From Epilithonimonas hungarica (lineage in GTDB: Bacteria > Bacteroidota > Bacteroidia > Flavobacteriales > Weeksellaceae), in NCBI RefSeq assembly GCF_900102265.1, contig NZ_FNBH01000003.1, positions 124,001-188,000 of the forward strand: 64,000 bases of DNA, read 5' to 3'. Positions 24,463 through 54,613 of the stretch are shown here, in pieces. The notes beneath the pieces are model-generated. The model did no database searches, had not been told where the DNA came from, and was given only the letters and a program-made list of their open reading frames with translations. Numbering within the stretch: position 1 is the first letter of the stretch; every line of letters begins with the position of its first letter. The translations under genes and the position numbers were made by a program.

Positions 24463-24650
24463 GGGGCGTATCCCTTTGTTTCGTTTGCTTTTCACGCTCG
24501 GTCTGCAAAAGAAATTTTATCCAAGGCAAACAAAACAAGCGGGTCGGGCTATCCACTCATATCTTTTGTTTTTTTATAAACATTTGTCTTTCTGATAGAA
24601 CCCGAATCCCAAAAAAACAAAAGGATAACCGTTTCTATCCCTTACGCGGT
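24463..24650. repeat. Candidate flavobacterial intergenic repeat element
   Basis: In the 372-bp gap between 24411 and 24784 lies a more GC-rich block beginning GGGGCGTATCCC, with GGGTCGGGCTATCC near 24541 and ending TATCCCTTACGC near 24647. Inside it CTTTTGTTTTTTT (24563-24575) and AAAAAAACAAAAG (24611-24623) are a 13-bp perfect inverted repeat. The phrases match, from memory, a repeat scattered between genes in Chryseobacterium-type genomes; copy number cannot be checked here. No ORF is supported in this gap. Confidence 0.5.
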
Positions 24651-24783
24651 GGCGCAAGAATCACGATTTGTCACAGTTAGAAAATTTCTTCAAAAAAGAA
24701 GCTCTAGCATTTGTCAAACTACAACATAATTCTTTTGAAACCCCGTCAATTCTGCTTATATTTACACCCTAAATTTTCAAAAA

Positions 24784-46604: not shown

Positions 46605-47246
46605 ATGATGGAAAATAAATTCCCGTTTCTAGATACTTTATTTCTGCTTCGGGAGGAAGAATGTATTACCATTTTCACAGATATCCAGAAAATTTCAAAA
46701 AAGGAAGAACAAGATGCTATAAGTTATCTTGAATCTGAATTTGAAAAGGAAAGATTAGATTTTTTGTCTGATCAGATCAATTGTGACCATGAAGCAGCAA
46801 TCTGGGCAGCCAACGTTCTTTATCACAGTGCACAACTATATTTGATCAGGAAAGATACGGATAAAAATCTAGAAAAATTAATTCCACCATTCAAAGGAAA
46901 AATTAATGTTTCATCTGCCTTATCGGCAGATTTGTCTTTAAGGTTTTTACCACAAATTATTTTGTCTTTGCAAAACGCAGATTCAGAGGACCCATTAATT
47001 AAGATATTGGAAAATATTTTAAAGCAATTCCATTATTCAGCAGTTGGATTTGATCTGGATTTGGGAAAAGTTAATTGGGAAGAAGAACTGAAAGACCATA
47101 CATACAGAAAGTTATACCTCGAAAGAGTCGTGGAAAAGAAAGCTTATAAATTGGCAGAAATTCCATACATCAATCAATTACTTATTGCAGAATTCGGGAT
47201 GTATAAAGATGTTTTTTGGAGGGAATTAAAAGTAATAGAAAATTAA
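46605..47246 (+). CDS. Helical protein opening the MoxR-vWA operon
   Basis: A 213-residue soluble, mostly helical, acidic protein. It could start at either of two adjacent ATGs (46605 or 46608). No known motif is visible; features are KISKKEEQDAISYLESEFEKE and CDHEAAIWAANVLYHSAQLYL. It is 15 bp before the MoxR ATPase gene, and everything downstream overlaps, so it belongs to the same operon. A TAATTTTG box at 46593-46600 is so close to the ATG that transcripts from it would be leaderless. Probably an accessory or adaptor subunit of the ternary system. Confidence 0.7.
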   Translation: MMENKFPFLDTLFLLREEECITIFTDIQKISKKEEQDAISYLESEFEKERLDFLSDQINCDHEAAIWAANVLYHSAQLYLIRKDTDKNLEKLIPPFKGKINVSSALSADLSLRFLPQIILSLQNADSEDPLIKILENILKQFHYSAVGFDLDLGKVNWEEELKDHTYRKLYLERVVEKKAYKLAEIPYINQLLIAEFGMYKDVFWRELKVIEN

Positions 47247-47261
47247 AAAACTAATAAGTAA

Positions 47262-48395
47262 ATGACTCAAAATATTGAAAAATTAAACTCGGTCCTCACG
47301 TACGTAAAAGACACATTTGTAGGGAAAAATGATGTAGTAGATTTATTAGGAATCTGCCTATTGGCAAGAGAAAATGCTTTTTTGTATGGTCCTCCCGGAA
47401 CAGCAAAATCTGCAATCGTGAGAACACTGGCGAAAACCGTAAAAGACGGGAAAAATTTCGAATATCTTCTGACAAGATTTACAGAGCCTAACGAGATCTT
47501 TGGACCATTCGACATCAGAAAATTAAAGGAAGGTGAGTTATTGACCAATACTGAAGGTATGATGCCGGAAGCATCAATGGTTTTCCTGGATGAGATCTTC
47601 AATGCAAATTCTGCGATCCTGAATTCACTCTTGATGGCTTTAAATGAAAAGATCTTCAAGCGAGGGAAAGAGACCAAGCATCTTCCTGCCCTTATGTTCG
47701 TGGGAGCAAGCAACGTTCTTCCAGAAGATGAAGCACTGAATGCATTGTTCGACCGTTTTCTGATCAGGATCAATGTGGACTATGTGAATCCTGATCTGCT
47801 TCAACAAGTACTTTTAGCTGGAAGAAAATTAGAAAATAATGTTGAAACAGAAATTCCTGAAATTCTTTCGCAAGAGATAAAAGAACTTCAAAATCTTTGT
47901 AAGGCGATAGACCTCAAACCAATTTACGAAGTCTATCTGAATACTATAATCAATCTTAGAAATACAGGAATTGCTATTTCTGACCGTAGAGCAGTGAAAC
48001 TTCAGAATCTTATTGCTGCAAGTGCATTGATATGCGGCAGAAACGAGGCTGTCCTTTCTGATCTGTGGGTATTGAAGCACATTTGGGATACTGAAGAACA
48101 GATTGAGATACTTGAGGGGATTATCAACAGGACCATTGAAAAAGATGATCATCCAAAATCCCATCCGCAGGCCTTACAAAATAAAACTCCTGATCCGGAA
48201 GAAGTCATGAAGGATGTAAAAATCCTGGTAGAAAAATGGGATCTAGGAAACTTGAGTTTTGAAGAACAAAATGTGATCAAAGACAAGCTGAGATATCTGC
48301 AAACCCGTTGCGACTGGATCAGAAATCCAGAACAAAAACAATACATCCAACAAGAAATAGAAAGTCTATGGCAAAAAATCCTTCAAACGGTTTAA
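47262..48395 (+). CDS. MoxR-family AAA+ ATPase
   Basis: A 377-residue AAA+ ATPase of the MoxR/RavA clade, the chaperone-like partner of vWA proteins. Walker A (GPPGTAKS) is at residues 43-50, the MoxR insert TEPNEIFGPFDI at 74-85, Walker B (MVFLDEIF) at 106-113, sensor 1 (FVGASN) at 146-151, the arginine finger region DRFLIRINVDY near 165, and sensor 2 in ISDRRAVKLQNLI near 238. The lid is extended by about 90 C-terminal residues. Its 3' end overlaps the next gene by 28 bp. It is expected to remodel or load its vWA partner with ATP. Confidence 0.92.
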   Translation: MTQNIEKLNSVLTYVKDTFVGKNDVVDLLGICLLARENAFLYGPPGTAKSAIVRTLAKTVKDGKNFEYLLTRFTEPNEIFGPFDIRKLKEGELLTNTEGMMPEASMVFLDEIFNANSAILNSLLMALNEKIFKRGKETKHLPALMFVGASNVLPEDEALNALFDRFLIRINVDYVNPDLLQQVLLAGRKLENNVETEIPEILSQEIKELQNLCKAIDLKPIYEVYLNTIINLRNTGIAISDRRAVKLQNLIAASALICGRNEAVLSDLWVLKHIWDTEEQIEILEGIINRTIEKDDHPKSHPQALQNKTPDPEEVMKDVKILVEKWDLGNLSFEEQNVIKDKLRYLQTRCDWIRNPEQKQYIQQEIESLWQKILQTV

Positions 48396-49111
48396 AAGAC
48401 TATTGGGCGGAACTTCCTCGTGCTGATGAAGGATTCTTGGGTTCGATGCGTGATTGGGGAAATATTCAGGTTGCATTGGACGAGGAGGTGATCTGGCTAA
48501 AGGGTTTTACCGATGAACAAGCTGTCTCGTCGGAGATTCAACAATTGCCTAATTTTTTATTGTATGAATTGAGAGAAGGTTTTCTGTTCCGAAAAGATGC
48601 TTTGGTTCCCAGCAAGAGAGTGAGGACGGCTTTGCTCTGGACACCAATCGATAAAGCTCTGAAGCTGACTTTTCCTATTTCAAATAATAATTTTTTTGGA
48701 ATCGATAAAAAAATTGAGATTAAATTAAAAGTCAGTGAAGAGGAACAACCGGCAGTTGTACTGTTAAGTCCTATAGCTGAAATTAAAGACATCATCATTA
48801 CTTTGCCAAAATTCAAATTGGAAAAATTGGATTGGATCGTCATTAATGATAAGGCATTGTTTGTTGGAACGCCATTATTAAGTTTTCCCGGAAAAACATA
48901 CTGGACGAAAGACGGACATCTTTTACCTGCGGGTTTCGATTTTGAATTTAAAAATCTGAGTTTCTTGCTACAGAAAAAATATAATGCAGATCAGGATCAA
49001 TGGCTTTTATGGAAAGAGGATGGAAGTTATTTGAACATCGATAAAAATGATCTTCAGAAATTGTCCGTAAGCTCATTTCGTCTCACTGAAAAAGCAAAAG
49101 AATGGATCTAG
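48368..49111 (+). CDS. Small soluble subunit of the MoxR-vWA-bpX system (bpX-like)
   Basis: ATG at 48368 (MAKNPSNGLKDYWAELPR) is chosen; an in-frame start 20 codons upstream lies deep inside the MoxR gene. The 247-residue protein has no membrane segment. It contains MRDWGNIQVALDEEVIWLKGF, then LREGFLFRKDALVPSKRVRTALLWTP and repeated beta-strand pairs, which fit one of the bpX accessory families defined for MoxR-vWA-beta-propeller systems. Its exact bpX number is uncertain. Overlaps of 28 bp upstream and 10 bp downstream show coupled translation. Confidence 0.6.
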   Translation: MAKNPSNGLKDYWAELPRADEGFLGSMRDWGNIQVALDEEVIWLKGFTDEQAVSSEIQQLPNFLLYELREGFLFRKDALVPSKRVRTALLWTPIDKALKLTFPISNNNFFGIDKKIEIKLKVSEEEQPAVVLLSPIAEIKDIIITLPKFKLEKLDWIVINDKALFVGTPLLSFPGKTYWTKDGHLLPAGFDFEFKNLSFLLQKKYNADQDQWLLWKEDGSYLNIDKNDLQKLSVSSFRLTEKAKEWI

Positions 49112-51492
49112 TATCATATTTTCAGTCTTATGATGATTATTTCTGGGAGTGGGGAACAGATGAAGATATTCAGGATAACACAGGATATTCTGAGAATAAT
49201 CTTCTATCAATTCCAAATGTAGGTGTGATTGCTTATCGGGCTTATGTCATTGAAATTTTAAAGGAACTGAAAGATCAGGGGTTCCCACCTTTTGGTTCTC
49301 TGCTTCTTGTTTTGTACGCTTTACAAGATGGATATTTGAATTTAAATGGTGCTTTTTTTCATTTGAAGAGACAAAAGAATATATATTTAAATGATTTCGA
49401 ACTTGCTGTTACTTTTTTAGAAAATTTGAGTCATTCTGGCCGCTCTTTTAAAAAGGGACAAAATAAAATTATTCTTTTAAAAACAATTTTCAAAGATTGT
49501 CATAATATTATTTCTTCTGGAGCCTCGGATTTGATTATTCGAAGATTTGAAAAAAGACCTCATAAAATCTCAGAATCAGCGCACAAAAGTGATTTGATGC
49601 AATCTGTCTTAAACAGAGATATCAAAGTTTTAGCATTACTTCAGAACAAATTTCCAACGACCGAATCTATCATCAATGCTATGAAAAACATAGTTGATGT
49701 TGACGATCTGGAGGACGAAATTATTGAAGAAGAAACGACTGTTGAAACAGATAAAGATTTCATCCAGGAATTGATGGAAGACCCAAAAACTTTTCAGGTC
49801 GGAAGTTTGATCAAAAGGATTTGGAGTGGCCTGAAAATTCCTATGCGTCATCTTTCGCCCGGTGAGCAACCAATTGGAGGTGTTTCTGATATGACAAATA
49901 AAGGCGATTTCAGTAGGATGCTTTTGTCCGAGTTTGCCAATGAAGATGAAGTCTTTATGAATCGTGTGGCAAATAATGAAGCGTTGTATATCCAAAGGGA
50001 GATTCCACCGGAGGAAAACATTTTTGAACGGATTATTTTGATTGATACTTCCATTCGGAATTGGGGAACTCCGAAAGTTTTGGCTTTTGCATCGGCAATT
50101 GCTGTGATCAAACATCCGAAAGCTAATTCTGAATGTAAGGTTTTCGCATTGGGACAAAATACGATTCCAATTTCTTTAGACAAAGTAGAGCAGGTTATTG
50201 ATAATCTGAATCAGGTAAGTCCTGTTTTAGAAGCATCAAATGCTCTTCAGAAATTTTTTGAGGAAGAGCATAAAGAAAAAGATCTGGAAGTATTCTTGAT
50301 CACAAATCAGGAAAATCTCTCAAATCAAAACCTTCAGAGAGTCATTCACGAAAACAGGGACCGACTGAAATTTCTGGTGACAACTTCCGCAAATGGGGAA
50401 CTTGATTTTTACAAACATCACAAAGGAGCGAGGAAACATATACAGAAAATTGTTCTACCACTTAAGGAGTTGTGGGCAAATCCACCTCAAATAAAATCTG
50501 AAGGACACAATGATAACAATTCCAAAAAAAACAAGAGAATAGATGTCCCAAAGAATTATCCGTTACTGTTCCCAACACCGAAAAACAAGATCGCCACATT
50601 TTTGTATGAAGGCGAATTCTATATTTTAAGCTCTAAAAAACAGTTGCTTAGGACTTATGTGTCCAGTAATTATTATAACAGAAATTATTACGAACAATAT
50701 AAGATCCATAGAGGCTGTGAAGTTTTGATAGAAAATATATCCGTAAAGCCAAAAGGGAAGTTTGCATTGGCAAGAAATAAACAACAGCAATTTATTCTTT
50801 GCCAATATCAGCCGGATAAGAAATTGGTCTCTAAGCTTAATCTTAATACGAAAGAATATTCTGAGCTTAATGTTACTGGTCATCATATTCCACTGAACTT
50901 TGAACCGATCTACTTCAACAGAGCTTTCTATCTTTACCAGGAAGATTTTCCTTCCGTTTTCAAATTAAATATAGATGGTGACCTTTCCATCGAAATGGTC
51001 AGGAATAATGATAATATCAGTAAAAATCTAAAAAAAGTTGAAGTTGAAATTAATAAACAAATTCATAATGAAACCAAAATATTAAGTAGTTTTAATAATA
51101 TCGGGATCAATACAGAAAATAATCTTGTAATTTCTAGTTATGAATTGGCAAAAAAATATGATAACTCGCTGACATTATATAAAAATAGATCTGGAATCAG
51201 GAGCTTGGCTCAGCAGGATAAAAATAAATTCATGTTTTCCGATGGTAGCGAGATTATTACAGATTCGCGAGGAATGCTGACTTTTACAAGTAGTAATAAA
51301 AATATTCCGGTTTTCTATATTCCTTCTTCGGAAGATGGCTTTTTAGCGCTCGCAACGGCCTATGAATTTGGTGGTTCAGAATATTATTTACCAGAGTCCT
51401 CCAAATTAAAAATAAGGGAAAGAGAAGAAATGTATTCGGAATATCTTGATGCTTATATTGATCAAATCTTGGCTTATGGAACTGATCATTAA
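49102..51492 (+). CDS. vWA-like and beta-propeller-like protein of the ternary system
   Basis: A 796-residue protein. Residues 1-290 are helical. A vWA-like domain follows with FERIILIDTSIRNWGTP near residue 310; the MIDAS reads DTSIR, so the last Ser of DxSxS is Arg. KVFALGQNTIPISL and EVFLITNQENL continue the fold. From about 480 to the end are repeated beta-strand blocks (ATFLYEGEFYILSSKK, FALARNKQQQFILCQY, FKLNIDGDLSIEM, KFMFSDGSEIITDSRGM) like a beta-propeller, the proposed sensor part of the system. It overlaps its neighbours by 10 and 17 bp. Confidence 0.65.
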   Translation: MDLVSYFQSYDDYFWEWGTDEDIQDNTGYSENNLLSIPNVGVIAYRAYVIEILKELKDQGFPPFGSLLLVLYALQDGYLNLNGAFFHLKRQKNIYLNDFELAVTFLENLSHSGRSFKKGQNKIILLKTIFKDCHNIISSGASDLIIRRFEKRPHKISESAHKSDLMQSVLNRDIKVLALLQNKFPTTESIINAMKNIVDVDDLEDEIIEEETTVETDKDFIQELMEDPKTFQVGSLIKRIWSGLKIPMRHLSPGEQPIGGVSDMTNKGDFSRMLLSEFANEDEVFMNRVANNEALYIQREIPPEENIFERIILIDTSIRNWGTPKVLAFASAIAVIKHPKANSECKVFALGQNTIPISLDKVEQVIDNLNQVSPVLEASNALQKFFEEEHKEKDLEVFLITNQENLSNQNLQRVIHENRDRLKFLVTTSANGELDFYKHHKGARKHIQKIVLPLKELWANPPQIKSEGHNDNNSKKNKRIDVPKNYPLLFPTPKNKIATFLYEGEFYILSSKKQLLRTYVSSNYYNRNYYEQYKIHRGCEVLIENISVKPKGKFALARNKQQQFILCQYQPDKKLVSKLNLNTKEYSELNVTGHHIPLNFEPIYFNRAFYLYQEDFPSVFKLNIDGDLSIEMVRNNDNISKNLKKVEVEINKQIHNETKILSSFNNIGINTENNLVISSYELAKKYDNSLTLYKNRSGIRSLAQQDKNKFMFSDGSEIITDSRGMLTFTSSNKNIPVFYIPSSEDGFLALATAYEFGGSEYYLPESSKLKIREREEMYSEYLDAYIDQILAYGTDH

Positions 51493-53185
51493 ACCTTTCT
51501 CCGAAAATAGCTATCCTAAAAAAGGAATTCTTATCAGGAGCTCTTCTCCTTTGGTATGGCTTTCTGAAATGGAGTTTTTAGGAATCAATATCAGTCTGAT
51601 AAGATCATATGCAATTCCTTCAAATGAACCAAATGTTTTGTACGGCTGCCTCTTGGTCTTTGACAATTTGGCTCCGACAGAAATTGGTAAAAATTCTTAT
51701 TTTCAATGTGTTAATAATAAACTGTTTATTCCGGAGAATACAATCTTTTATCCAAAAATAACCCGGGAAGATTGGCAAAATATCTATCACGATTTTATGA
51801 TCATGCATCCCGATTTCGGATTGGTAAAATTGGCACAGCAGATAGATTGGGTTGCATTACTTCAGGAATCGCAAAAAAGTAATGATATTATAATAAAAGC
51901 CTCGAAAGGTATTAGGATCCCTCAAAAAATCGAAAGCTTCACTGTCGAGATGAATGATGAGAAAATCCTCGAAACACTTCAGAAACCTCAGACCGAGGAA
52001 GAATGGATGAAAAATCTGCCTTTCGATCTAAAAAAGGTAATGGCGGGCAATAAAAAAGAGGTAGAAAAATATCTGCAGTATTTAGAAAAATATCCGGATA
52101 GAGTTGCAGATCTTGGTGTTCCTCTGGATGTTGCCGGAACCTCACGCGGAGACGGCTGGTCAAATTTCAAATTTGGAAATAATTGGTTTAGCGGTATTTT
52201 TGGCAACAATAGAGAATCATCTGGTAAAGGTACTTTTGGTCCTGTATGGATAATCTTTGCCGTACTGATCATCTTGTCAGTTATAAGGATCAACTTTAAT
52301 TCAAATAAACTTGAAGCGCCAAAACAATCTTCAGGTTCTTTACAGGATGTTTCTGAAACCTATACTGAATCGCCTCCTCCTCCCGCTGTTATGGCATATA
52401 GATCGGGTGTTACAGATATCGATATGAAAATTGATTCGATGTATGGCGATAAAAGGTTAAGGCTAAATGCTGAGCTTATGAATGCCTCGTTAAGCTTTAG
52501 TAATACCAATGAGAAAAGTTATAAAGATTATTTAAAAGAGGGCGGAAGACCAATCAATGAAATCCAGTCTGAAATTTTAGCGCTTAATGAAAAAACGAAT
52601 CTTGCCACAGATTCCTTGAAACTGGTTTACAGGAAAAAGATCGTGAAATTTCTAACTCAAAATGAAGCAAAATATAAAAAGAAAATCAAAGATTCTCTAA
52701 AGAAAGCAGATTCAGGAACACCTTCAGATCAAGGAATTGTGTCAACAATTTTAAAGAAAAAACAGGTTTTAATTGAGGATTCTTTAGGTCGTCTTTATGG
52801 AACAAAAGAATATAAGGAACCTGAAATGTATTCTAAAAAAGCTACAAAGGTCCAAACATTGGATCATGGGGTTTCTTCTCAGGAAAAAGATATTTCAATT
52901 TTTGAGATCATCTATTTGATATTAGGTATCGTTGGTGTTATTGGCATATATTCTTATTTTTTCAGAAAAAAATCCTTGAATATGGGTGGTGACAATATTC
53001 CTGTTGCAGTGAAGATTTCTTTGATGGTAATTCTTGTTGGTATGCTGGTCTATCTCTTTTATCCGGTCATAAAAATGTATGGATATAATTTGTTTACTTG
53101 GATCTTGATCATCTGCGTTGTGTTTTTGTTATACTATCTTTTCAGTGAAGATAAAACCATTTTAAGATCAGATAAAGATGAATAA
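51476..53185 (+). CDS. Membrane protein with N-terminal bpX6-like domain
   Basis: ATG at 51476 (MELIIKPFSENSYPKKGILI) is preferred to one ten codons upstream. The 569-residue protein begins with a roughly 140-residue domain (SSSPLVWLSEMEFLGINISL, PNVLYGCLLVF, IPENTIFYPKI) that I recall as the bpX6 domain. After a linker there is one membrane helix near residue 262 (WIIFAVLIILSVIRI), a charged helical region, and three more helices between 475 and 560. It likely ties the system to the inner membrane. The stop overlaps the next ATG by 8 bp. Confidence 0.6.
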   Translation: MELIIKPFSENSYPKKGILIRSSSPLVWLSEMEFLGINISLIRSYAIPSNEPNVLYGCLLVFDNLAPTEIGKNSYFQCVNNKLFIPENTIFYPKITREDWQNIYHDFMIMHPDFGLVKLAQQIDWVALLQESQKSNDIIIKASKGIRIPQKIESFTVEMNDEKILETLQKPQTEEEWMKNLPFDLKKVMAGNKKEVEKYLQYLEKYPDRVADLGVPLDVAGTSRGDGWSNFKFGNNWFSGIFGNNRESSGKGTFGPVWIIFAVLIILSVIRINFNSNKLEAPKQSSGSLQDVSETYTESPPPPAVMAYRSGVTDIDMKIDSMYGDKRLRLNAELMNASLSFSNTNEKSYKDYLKEGGRPINEIQSEILALNEKTNLATDSLKLVYRKKIVKFLTQNEAKYKKKIKDSLKKADSGTPSDQGIVSTILKKKQVLIEDSLGRLYGTKEYKEPEMYSKKATKVQTLDHGVSSQEKDISIFEIIYLILGIVGVIGIYSYFFRKKSLNMGGDNIPVAVKISLMVILVGMLVYLFYPVIKMYGYNLFTWILIICVVFLLYYLFSEDKTILRSDKDE

Positions 53186-54197
53186 GCAGAAGTTTATAGA
53201 TAAGTTTTTGGCTGCTTTTCTCATTTTGGCGATTATAAAGATCATCAGTGTGTTGGCCCAGGTTATTAAGGAGAGTTTTTGGGCAGCTATTGGAAGTTTA
53301 TTTCTTGTGATTGTCGTGGTCTTTATTTTATCTTTAGTCGTTGCTGCTTTGAAAAGTAAAGAAAATAATTGGGGAAATTCTGGAAGGCGAAATTCACGGG
53401 TAGGAAGTGCTTATGTGGAAGGTTCACTTTTTAATAGATTGCTCAATAAGTATGAAGAACTTGCACAAAAATATATTGATGAGAAGAATTATATCAAAGC
53501 AGCAAAGGTTTATATGAACTTATTAAAAGATAATTATCGGGGCGCTAAAACCTTGGAAAATGCAGGCCTATATAATGAGGCAGCTGTGATCTATCTTAAA
53601 AAATTGAACAATAGATCCGATGCAGCCAATTGTTACGAAAAAGCAAAACAATACAGAAAAGCAATTGATCTACATAAAGAGCTTGGAAACAAAGAGAAGG
53701 TAGGTGATCTGTATAAAGAGATCAATGATATTAAAAACTCAAATACCTATTACCAAATGGTTGTAGATGATTATACAAATAATAGCCAAATGGTAAAAGC
53801 TTCTCTCATCTATCGAAAAAAAATGGAAATGCCTGATGAAGCGCAGTCAATTTTGTTGAAAGGCTGGGAAGAAGACAGAGATGGATTTAATTGTCTTAAT
53901 AATTATTTTGCCAATATCTTTGATGTTAAAACTTTGGACCAAAAGATTCAGGAATTGTATCAGGATTTGGCTTCGGAGAAAAAGATGAATTATTTAAAGG
54001 CTATTAAAATTGAGTTTAACAAAAATCAGAAGCTCCAAGAAACAACAAGGAATATTGCATACGAAATAATTGCGGAAAAAGTGAATGCCCATTCCGAAAT
54101 CGTGAATGAATTGAAATTTTTCAATCCTAATGATGAGATTATTTTGAAGGATATTTCAAGATATAAAACTGGGAGGAATAAAATGTTTAGAAACTGA
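53178..54197 (+). CDS. Membrane-anchored TPR-like protein ending the operon
   Basis: A 339-residue protein. Two membrane helices (residues about 9-27 and 33-56) are followed by a solenoid of TPR-like helix pairs from residue 90 to 240: YIDEKNYIKAAKVYMNLL, ENAGLYNEAAVIYLKKL, YEKAKQYRKAIDLHKEL and ASLIYRKKMEMPDEA. It should scaffold partners on one face of the inner membrane. The ATG overlaps the previous gene by 8 bp. About 60 bp after its stop begins the structured RNA region. Confidence 0.75.
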   Translation: MNKQKFIDKFLAAFLILAIIKIISVLAQVIKESFWAAIGSLFLVIVVVFILSLVVAALKSKENNWGNSGRRNSRVGSAYVEGSLFNRLLNKYEELAQKYIDEKNYIKAAKVYMNLLKDNYRGAKTLENAGLYNEAAVIYLKKLNNRSDAANCYEKAKQYRKAIDLHKELGNKEKVGDLYKEINDIKNSNTYYQMVVDDYTNNSQMVKASLIYRKKMEMPDEAQSILLKGWEEDRDGFNCLNNYFANIFDVKTLDQKIQELYQDLASEKKMNYLKAIKIEFNKNQKLQETTRNIAYEIIAEKVNAHSEIVNELKFFNPNDEIILKDISRYKTGRNKMFRN

Positions 54198-54264
54198 TTT
54201 TATAAAAATTGAAATGGAAAAAAGACTACAAACTTTTTTATGTTTGTGTTATTGTTTGACTTTT

Positions 54265-54330
54265 CACCTTACTTATAATCGGTGCCGTAAGAAAGAGTTA
54301 CTTCGAATCCAAATTGTAAAGCCTCTTTCT
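54265..54330 (+). ncRNA. Structured domain upstream of the permuted tRNA-like RNA
   Basis: AGAAAGAG (54290-54297) pairs with CTCTTTCT (54323-54330), and inside it TTAC (54298-54301) pairs with GTAA (54316-54319). Just before, CACC (54265-54268)/GGTG (54281-54284) and TTAC (54269-54272)/GTAA (54287-54290) interleave, so a small pseudoknot is possible. A TATGTTTG promoter-like box lies at 54239-54246. Probably the 5' part of the same RNA as the next feature. Confidence 0.35.
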
Positions 54331-54362
54331 GCTTTTTTGCTCGATTTTAAAAAATATAAAAT

Positions 54363-54506
54363 AATCAAGTGTCGTCTTAGAATCATACTTCGAGATTGGA
54401 TAAACATTGTGTCGCAGGTTCAATTCCTGCCTTTTCCCTCGGAAAGGAAAAGTAGCTCAGAAGGTAGAGCAAATGCAAAGAAGATTCTATACTTTTTACC
54501 TTGATT
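54363..54506 (+). ncRNA. Circularly permuted tRNA-like cloverleaf
   Basis: The halves of a tRNA occur in reverse order. The 3' half comes first: CATT (54405-54408, anticodon stem), variable GTGTC, T-stem GCAGG/CCTGC around loop TTCAATT (54414-54430), acceptor CTTTTCC (54431-54437). After 8 nt the 5' half follows: acceptor GGAAAAG (54446-54452), TA, D-stem GCTC/GAGC (54455-54470), A, and AATG (54472-54475). All stems pair. Outside, CTTC/GAAG, TAGAAT/ATTCTA and AATCAAG/CTTGATT (54363-54369 with 54500-54506) pair to extend the anticodon stem. No CCA and no complete anticodon loop are encoded contiguously. Confidence 0.5.
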
Positions 54507-54541
54507 TAAAATATAAAATTTTGAAACTTAGTCAAATTTTG

Positions 54542-54613
54542 TAGCCTCACCAGGAATCGAACCTGGATCTAAAGTTTAGGAAACTTCTATTCTATCCGTT
54601 GAACTATGAGGCC
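54542..54613 (-). tRNA. tRNA-Arg (anticodon CCU)
   Basis: On the minus strand the acceptor GGCCTCA pairs with TGAGGCT (first pair G-U) and the discriminator is A. The D-stem is GTTC/GAAT, the anticodon stem GAAGT/ACTTT holds the loop TTCCTAA with anticodon CCT, and the T-stem CCAGG/CCTGG holds TTCGATT. CCA is not encoded. The gene is a normal, intact tRNA; it is 21 bp downstream of the XRE regulator stop on the same strand. Confidence 0.93.

Follow-up and report, generated by a model that had tools for sequence, protein, structure and literature searches.

The RNA at positions 54363-54506 of the window, by which we mean the whole 64-kb stretch of Epilithonimonas hungarica DNA that was analysed, is very probably a Ro60-type Y RNA, most likely orphaned in this genome and set in a tandem array context in its relatives. 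It has a two-part architecture, in which a conserved basal stem bears a circularly permuted tRNA-like module with a closed acceptor, and it is this anatomy, together with linkage to genes for TROVE-domain (Ro60) proteins in related genomes, that leads us to regard it as a Y RNA of the same working kind as YrlA. The lower part starts with a basal stem of 7 bp, one bulged base and 2 bp, followed by an inner stem and then by the invariant ATACTTCG; all 36 named pairs of the window copy (36/36) are standard pairs. The features are collected in Table 1.

Table 1 Features of the Y RNA locus in the window (positions counted from the first base of the window).
Feature	Position	Strand	Remarks
bpX operon (bpX4, bpMoxR, bpX2, bpX0/bpX1 protein, bpX3, TPR-like protein)	46605..54197	+	Pfam domains
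Inferred deletion scar	54225..54252		Approximate limits, junction by alignment
3' tail of third, truncated element	54253..54274	+	Complete in G022, G016 and G005 (signature scan)
Second, short Y RNA-like element	54275..54346	+	72 nt, same 5' signature
Probable Y RNA with permuted tRNA-like module	54363..54506	+	The main finding, ~144 nt
P1 basal stem	54363-54369, bulged T54370 and 54371-54372, paired with 54498-54506	+	Y RNA part
P2 inner stem	54378-54384 with 54483-54489	+	Y RNA part
tRNA-like module	54405..54475	+	Stub, T arm, closed acceptor stem, D arm
Anticodon-stem stub	54405-54408/54472-54475	+	4 bp
T arm	54414-54430	+	T stem 54414-54418/54426-54430, 5 bp
Acceptor stem	54431-54437/54446-54452	+	7 bp, 8-nt closing loop
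D arm	54455-54470	+	D stem 54455-54458/54467-54470, 4 bp
tRNA-Arg(cct), ordinary, convergent	54541..54613	-	ARAGORN; adjoins the Y RNA in E. caeni too

The initial annotation of this stretch had described T, acceptor, D and anticodon stems of 5, 7, 4 and 4 bp and a joint of 8 nt between the acceptor strands; all four stems were found, and the joint is the loop that closes the acceptor. Among the flanking segments that it had paired with each other, AATCAAG/CTTGATT and TAGAAT(C)/(G)ATTCTA hold, with compensatory changes in relatives, but CTTC/GAAG does not: its 5' side is invariant in 56 aligned sequences while its 3' side varies, its outer pair is kept in 44/56, and it has one G in common with a better-supported stem. 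The suggested Ile-like anticodon (GATAA) lies in a region that is variable in both length and sequence and is not conserved. ARAGORN reported no tRNA gene over 54363-54506, and single-sequence folding of the element gave a modest stability gain (z -1.56; 17/200 shuffles folded equally well or better).

We searched 246 genomes of the family by BLAST with a 150-nt stretch and, at E <= 1e-7, found homologues of the permuted RNA in 70 of them; a cut of E <= 0.01 raises this number to 85, and the additional 15 genomes, each matching only 19-46 nt, were left out. Most of the 70 homologues are near full length with 78-92% identity, the weakest being 68-73% identical or of partial length, and the RNA of genome G222 is 92% identical to that of the window. 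A search of related genomes for compensatory changes had been proposed as a check, and a lack of conservation or covariation in the flanking stems had been named as grounds for abandoning the permuted structure; such changes are present, and the flanking stems covary. Across an alignment of 56 sequences (paralogues included), 96.6% of cells are paired over the 36 pairs, as against 36.2-47.6% when the partners are slid by 1-3 columns. Changes on both sides occur in 14/36 pairs, and the covariation score was reached by 0/500 shuffles, a comparison in which kin sequences may beat shuffles without structure and in which the structure was taken from one aligned row. Compensatory changes are found in five of the six helices (the basal, inner, anticodon stub, T and acceptor stems), whereas the D stem varies too little among the 56 sequences for covariation to be judged. 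Helices 1 and 2, which form the paired-end basal stem, have 97.2% and 95.1% of their cells paired, with 7/16 pairs changed on both sides. RNAalifold recovered the same helices unaided, two of them shorter by one pair and the anticodon stub missing. The aligned relatives share with the window copy the short loop at the end of the acceptor.

The Rfam model of YrlA (RF02553) gives positions 54406-54474 a score of 33.4 bits, where its gathering score is 69, and the Y RNAs in the scanned loci of relatives, with 29.6-44.6 bits, fall short of it as well; because the family's cut-off is not reached, the element is not filed in RF02553. Ordinary tandem tRNAs score alike with this model (34.0 bits for a tRNA pair elsewhere in this genome and 36.6 bits inside the tRNA array of locus L279), and matches at E <= 0.1 occur in 237/246 family genomes and 9/14 control genomes, none of them above the cut-off. 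Given that ordinary tandem tRNAs equal the score and that weak matches are near-universal in the family, we dropped the YrlA score alone as proof. The permuted T, closed acceptor and D arms that characterize a YrlA-type module are all present. Compared with ordinary tRNAs, the 5' half of the window module matches Gly(tcc) best, then Lys(ttt), and the 3' half matches Phe(gaa) best, then Arg(tct); since the halves match different tRNAs best, no imitated isoacceptor can be named.

A TROVE match is present in 77/246 family genomes and in 69/70 genomes that carry the RNA, the sole exception being the window genome itself (G000), in which a search for TROVE/Ro60 found none. This co-occurrence corresponds to a Fisher p of about 1e-50 over the 246 genomes with kinship ignored. 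In 69/69 genomes the RNA and TROVE share a contig and a strand, with the RNA 790-3987 bases downstream, measured from the matched domain rather than from the gene end, and the ORF upstream of the RNA in relatives matches both TROVE and the Ro60 vWA domain, the latter just below the Pfam cut-off in one of two proteins. Eight of the 77 TROVE genomes are without the RNA (G060, G089, G094, G104, G115, G124, G211 and G248). The RNA is thus encoded beside Ro60 in its orthologues and not in the window genome. In E. caeni (G015), the stretch from the bpX operon to the RNA holds five tRNA genes, genes for an RNaseH-like and an RNase T protein, and one for a 505-aa TROVE protein.

We also built a covariance model of the RNA (R1) and searched it over 395 genomes of the order, of which 178 passed E <= 1e-4. 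At 79 bits or more, a cut that was set after the gap was visible, 35/395 genomes remain; 34 of these together with G060 are the 35 TROVE genomes, and the next best genome below the cut (G344, 56.4 bits) has no TROVE match. The window's RNA was among the sequences used to build R1, so high scores for these sequences are built in, and 29 of the 35 genomes were already in the family sample. The other six come from a second family; in each of them TROVE and the RNA match share contig and strand, the match being about 0.7-0.85 kb downstream. In L318 and L319, the two loci of the second family that were read, a TROVE protein 70% identical to that of E. caeni is encoded directly upstream of 5 and 4 elements, respectively, that bear the array signature described below, and the R1 match there belongs to a sister permuted type, not to the type found in the window.

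Between the tRNA array and Ro60, the E. caeni interval carries RNaseH_like and RNase_T genes, and the G222 interval carries genes for a cREC_REC protein, an RLIG1-like ligase, a nucleoside hydrolase and a metallophosphoesterase; coordinates of these RNA-handling genes are L203:8766-9817 and L201:13247-15944.

YrlA RNAs, as described in parts of two papers (PMC8394870, PMC11472068), measure 90-150 nt, with a large end-joining stem that tethers Rsr and a domain that resembles the D, T and acceptor arms of tRNA; the structure of Salmonella YrlA (6CU1) superposes on tRNA in circularly permuted order, and Rsr and Y RNA genes are adjacent in some bacteria. The tRNA-like module of YrlA engages PNPase, DusA and TruB, according to a part of PMC8394870. 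Our RNA resembles YrlA (RF02553; 6CU1) in its basal stem joining the ends and in its permuted T, acceptor and D arms, but differs from it in that the scores here and in relatives are below the Rfam cut-off, that the basal-stem sequence is different, that the relatives' RNAs stand in tandem arrays of up to 8 elements with varied inserts, and that no Ro60 was found in the window genome. The Ro60/Rsr-RtcBA operon of Salmonella, as portrayed in part of PMC7790460, likewise has Ro60 and Y RNAs beside RNA-processing genes. The neighbours differ, however, being a tRNA array and RNaseH-like and RNase T proteins in E. caeni, and an RNA-ligase-like and a cREC_REC protein in G222, and the bpX operon adjoins.

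By analogy with the YrlA literature, the basal stem would serve as the handle that Ro60 (Rsr) binds, and the tRNA-like module may be an adapter or decoy for proteins that normally see tRNA; a decoy role is raised as a possibility for YrlA in a portion of PMC7790460. As several RNAs with different modules lie downstream of Ro60 in relatives, one Ro60 could load different adapters. It is plausible that these RNAs help the cell to cope with cut tRNA and rRNA, because G222, the one island that bears on this point, encodes an RNA-ligase-like protein and a cyclic-phosphate-processing receiver, and because a part of PMC7824862 presents TROVE with a tRNA-like partner as a platform for RNA repair.

Further elements with the same 5' signature were first seen downstream of the RNA in G222. 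The signature consists of RTGYYGT, 6-15 bases and TACTTCG, with a 3' end that carries UURCC. We found 300 signature elements in 70 loci (69 islands and the window), each locus holding between 1 and 8. No copy of the signature was found in 25 unrelated loci (172 kb, both strands counted), and the 64-kb window has just two, one at each Y RNA. Its Y and the R of the 3' end form C-G in 158, T-A in 129 and T-G in 13 of the 300 elements; these counts of pair types, like those of paired ends, are biased because the 3' ends were required to pair and were chosen to favour pairing, Watson-Crick first. The fair test for the outer stem is a swap of partners between types: a run of 5 or more pairs joins 268/300 elements to their own 3' end, as against 18.3% of 3000 swaps. 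The inner stem gives a weaker signal, with 250/291 for the element's own partner versus 34.5% when swapped (291/300 elements were kept for this comparison).

The inserts of these elements form 29 single-linkage clusters, of which 13 have at least three members. The largest (138) comprises two permuted types, that of the window RNA and its sister, both matched by R1, and a rough split on one base divides it into 84 elements in 65 loci and 54 elements in 50 loci; the strict scan, for example because of an insertion or a changed signature, misses the window's type in some BLAST-positive loci. Other inserts are T-arm hairpins, a GGGG...GCCCC module with a T arm, short hairpins, and additional permuted-tRNA-looking inserts judged by eye. 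The putative tRNA halves in clusters 2, 6 and 10 match tRNA 5' halves weakly (13-18 nt), and their permuted label was likewise given by eye. In 8 loci the insert reproduces the 23S rRNA segment TAACTATAACGGTCCTAAGGTAGCGAAATTC exactly or nearly so (0-8 changes of 31), and we take this segment to be helix 69-71 of 23S rRNA; of 32 rows picked as 23S-like, 24 were false and tRNA-like and 8 were real. In G222, the same 33 bases of the 23S-like insert recur at four further sites of the genome, and the one of these that was checked is LSU rRNA (Rfam), inside model positions 1724-2234.

The window appears to keep the remains of such an array. The ends of the short element at 54275-54346 pair as AATCG/CGATT and its inner stem as GAAAGAG/CTCTTTC; the element was aligned with eight relatives, and from 54253 onwards the window matches the G022 array with 89.7% identity over 116 positions (BLAST). 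Behind the TPR-like gene, similarity to E. caeni is weak past the stop codon at 54197 and gone by 54224, and similarity to the Y RNA array of G022/G005 begins at 54253; because one likeness ends before the other starts, the intervening parts were probably lost. The distance from the TPR-like gene to the permuted RNA is about 5.2 kb in E. caeni versus 0.17 kb in the window. From these alignments we infer that a deletion left the window's RNAs behind as orphans; in this lineage it would have removed the tRNA array, the RNases and Ro60 and left two complete Y RNAs and one tail. The loss would amount to about 5 kb if E. caeni represents the earlier state, and would be larger if that state resembled the longer islands seen in other relatives. 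The tRNA gene counts (42 in G000, 44 in G015, 50 in G014 and 74 in G222, with 150 candidates per genome scored) do not decide on the deletion, given that G014 has 50 although it is without an array behind bpX.

Since the inferred deletion would have taken Ro60, and no Ro60 was found in the window genome, the defining partner is missing for the window copy, and the RNA is most likely an orphan here, intact and protein-less, which would act, if at all, as a free tRNA mimic. Its intact structure and its identity to the G222 RNA could reflect a Ro60-independent role. That a job of this kind has been retained, for example as a free tRNA decoy or a PNPase adapter, is compatible with a Y RNA origin, and we regard it as possible but rather doubtful: the 36 intact pairs, the 92% identity and the survival of two complete members speak for it, but this is a single genome of such state among 246, and a recent loss of Ro60 would look alike.

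The position of the RNA behind the bpX operon, which had been noted at the outset, stands, but a partnership with that operon does not emerge, as the RNA co-occurs with Ro60 in 69/70 genomes and with bpX2 in 64/70. The operon resembles the MoxR-vWA-beta-propeller systems in having bpX4, bpMoxR, bpX2, bpX0, bpX1 and bpX3; TPR-like is our own label for a protein with weak SNAP and Clathrin-repeat matches in Pfam. A word search of the main text of PMC7159879, on beta-propeller ternary systems, returned no 'Y RNA', and 'tRNA' and 'trove' once each, in the reference list. That the RNA works within the bpX system, and not with Ro60, is improbable. It adjoins the operon here, bpX2 is present in most RNA genomes, and of the 65 genomes having both bpX2 and TROVE, 56 carry them on one contig and strand, 8.5-30.6 kb apart (the remaining 9/65 have them on separate contigs); however, 30/94 bpX2 genomes are without the RNA and 6/70 RNA genomes are without bpX2, whereas TROVE is missing from 1/70. 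On these co-occurrence counts bpX was dropped as the leading idea for the RNA's partner; it is a linked neighbour, not an evident partner.

We surveyed tRNA arrays in 80 loci of relatives (L031-L110), 75 of which include the TPR-like gene with 3 kb or more of sequence after it. There are 4-17 same-strand tRNA genes behind the TPR-like gene in 67/75 loci and none in 8. The arrays start at a median of 927 bases after the TPR-like gene and keep a largely constant order, with His(gtg) as the first tRNA in 57 loci (an example array is L034:17812-20144). Together with the frequent linkage of bpX2 and TROVE, these arrays indicate that bpX, the tRNA array, Ro60 and the Y RNA array frequently share a single neighbourhood. 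The interval from the TPR-like gene to the tRNA array contains two short, conserved units that bear terminator-like hairpins (L034:17100-17800, L084 and L112:16215-16880), with small reading frames that start MTIQRAHI-like and MKQLH-like. Odd tRNA-like genes also occur upstream of bpX (L036:79-463, L042:1998-2463 and L044:3656-6373), among them genes without a clear anticodon and genes read as SeC(tca) and Asp(atc).

Permuted tRNA genes of algae and archaea have the 3' half before the 5' half, and the order of halves here is alike. The initial annotation had left the choice between a permuted pre-tRNA and a tRNA mimic with a closed acceptor end, of which the mimic survives; the pre-tRNA does not fit because there is no conserved anticodon and because the aligned relatives, too, have the short loop that closes the acceptor. 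We therefore give very little credence to a genuine permuted tRNA gene, the transcript of which would be circularised and cut into a functional tRNA. The order of the halves and a CCACCA stretch after the acceptor strand in 5/54 sister-type elements would agree with it, but a conserved anticodon in a 7-nt loop after re-joining was looked for and not found in the aligned sequences, the stub runs into a long conserved stem, the aligned orthologues have the closed acceptor, and the genomic linkage is to Ro60.

Two ordinary tandem tRNA genes with a deletion had been named as an observation that would overturn the permuted RNA, and relatives do have ordinary tRNA arrays downstream of bpX, but in E. 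caeni, G222 and G219, the stretches of which were read whole, the RNA is a separate element beyond the array. Least credible of all is that the element is what remains of two tandem tRNA genes minus their outer halves, with the pairing a by-product of similar acceptor stems: we weighed this seriously once the relatives' tRNA arrays appeared, as neighbouring array tRNAs often pair permuted-like and tandem tRNAs reach YrlA scores of 34.0 or 36.6 bits, and dropped it after the homologue search, since homologues keep non-tRNA flanks in many of 70 genomes, the basal and inner stems show compensatory changes, and the RNA lies beyond the tRNA array and does not replace it.

Taking the element as a Ro60-type Y RNA, we tentatively suggest a wider scheme, which we consider possible rather than probable, in which one Ro60-binding handle carries exchangeable modules imitating tRNAs and a 23S segment, as a set of decoys or adapters of which the window would be a natural deletion. 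Such an array would let one Ro60 ring present varied RNA shapes, for example to toxins that cut RNA or to enzymes of repair and decay, and would sit beside a tRNA array replacing lost tRNAs and beside the bpX conflict system. A lone permuted tRNA mimic beside Ro60, of the YrlA type, is already known. What would be new is a modular array with one handle and varied RNA-like inserts, including a copy of a functional 23S rRNA stretch, and, if the scheme is true, its tie to the bpX conflict system and a tRNA array. The function of bacterial Ro60-Y RNA particles could then be tested directly in such a setting, with the window genome as a natural case without Ro60 in which Y RNAs persist. Among the matches listed by a literature word search (titles and the starts of abstracts, with the main Y RNA papers and reviews outside its scope), none concerned Y RNA arrays, rRNA-imitating Y RNAs or a link between bpX and Ro60.

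Several minor observations concern the same islands. At L215:5078-5305 and in seven other loci, the 23S-like stretch is followed by other structured-looking sequence. The T loops of permuted modules carry insertions at L217:5605, L250:5070 and L275:4519 and 4691, and three of these four have a ATTCGTGAA-like sequence in common, as if a small mobile element targeted a T-loop-like site. Lastly, a Flavo-1 RNA (RF01705) is present in the window at 24538-24658 (-) and also in L122, L131, L172, L215, L217, L261 and L274, in these loci on the strand opposite to the Y RNAs; the match in L279 is below the cut-off, and in L215 the Flavo-1 RNA lies just behind the TROVE gene.
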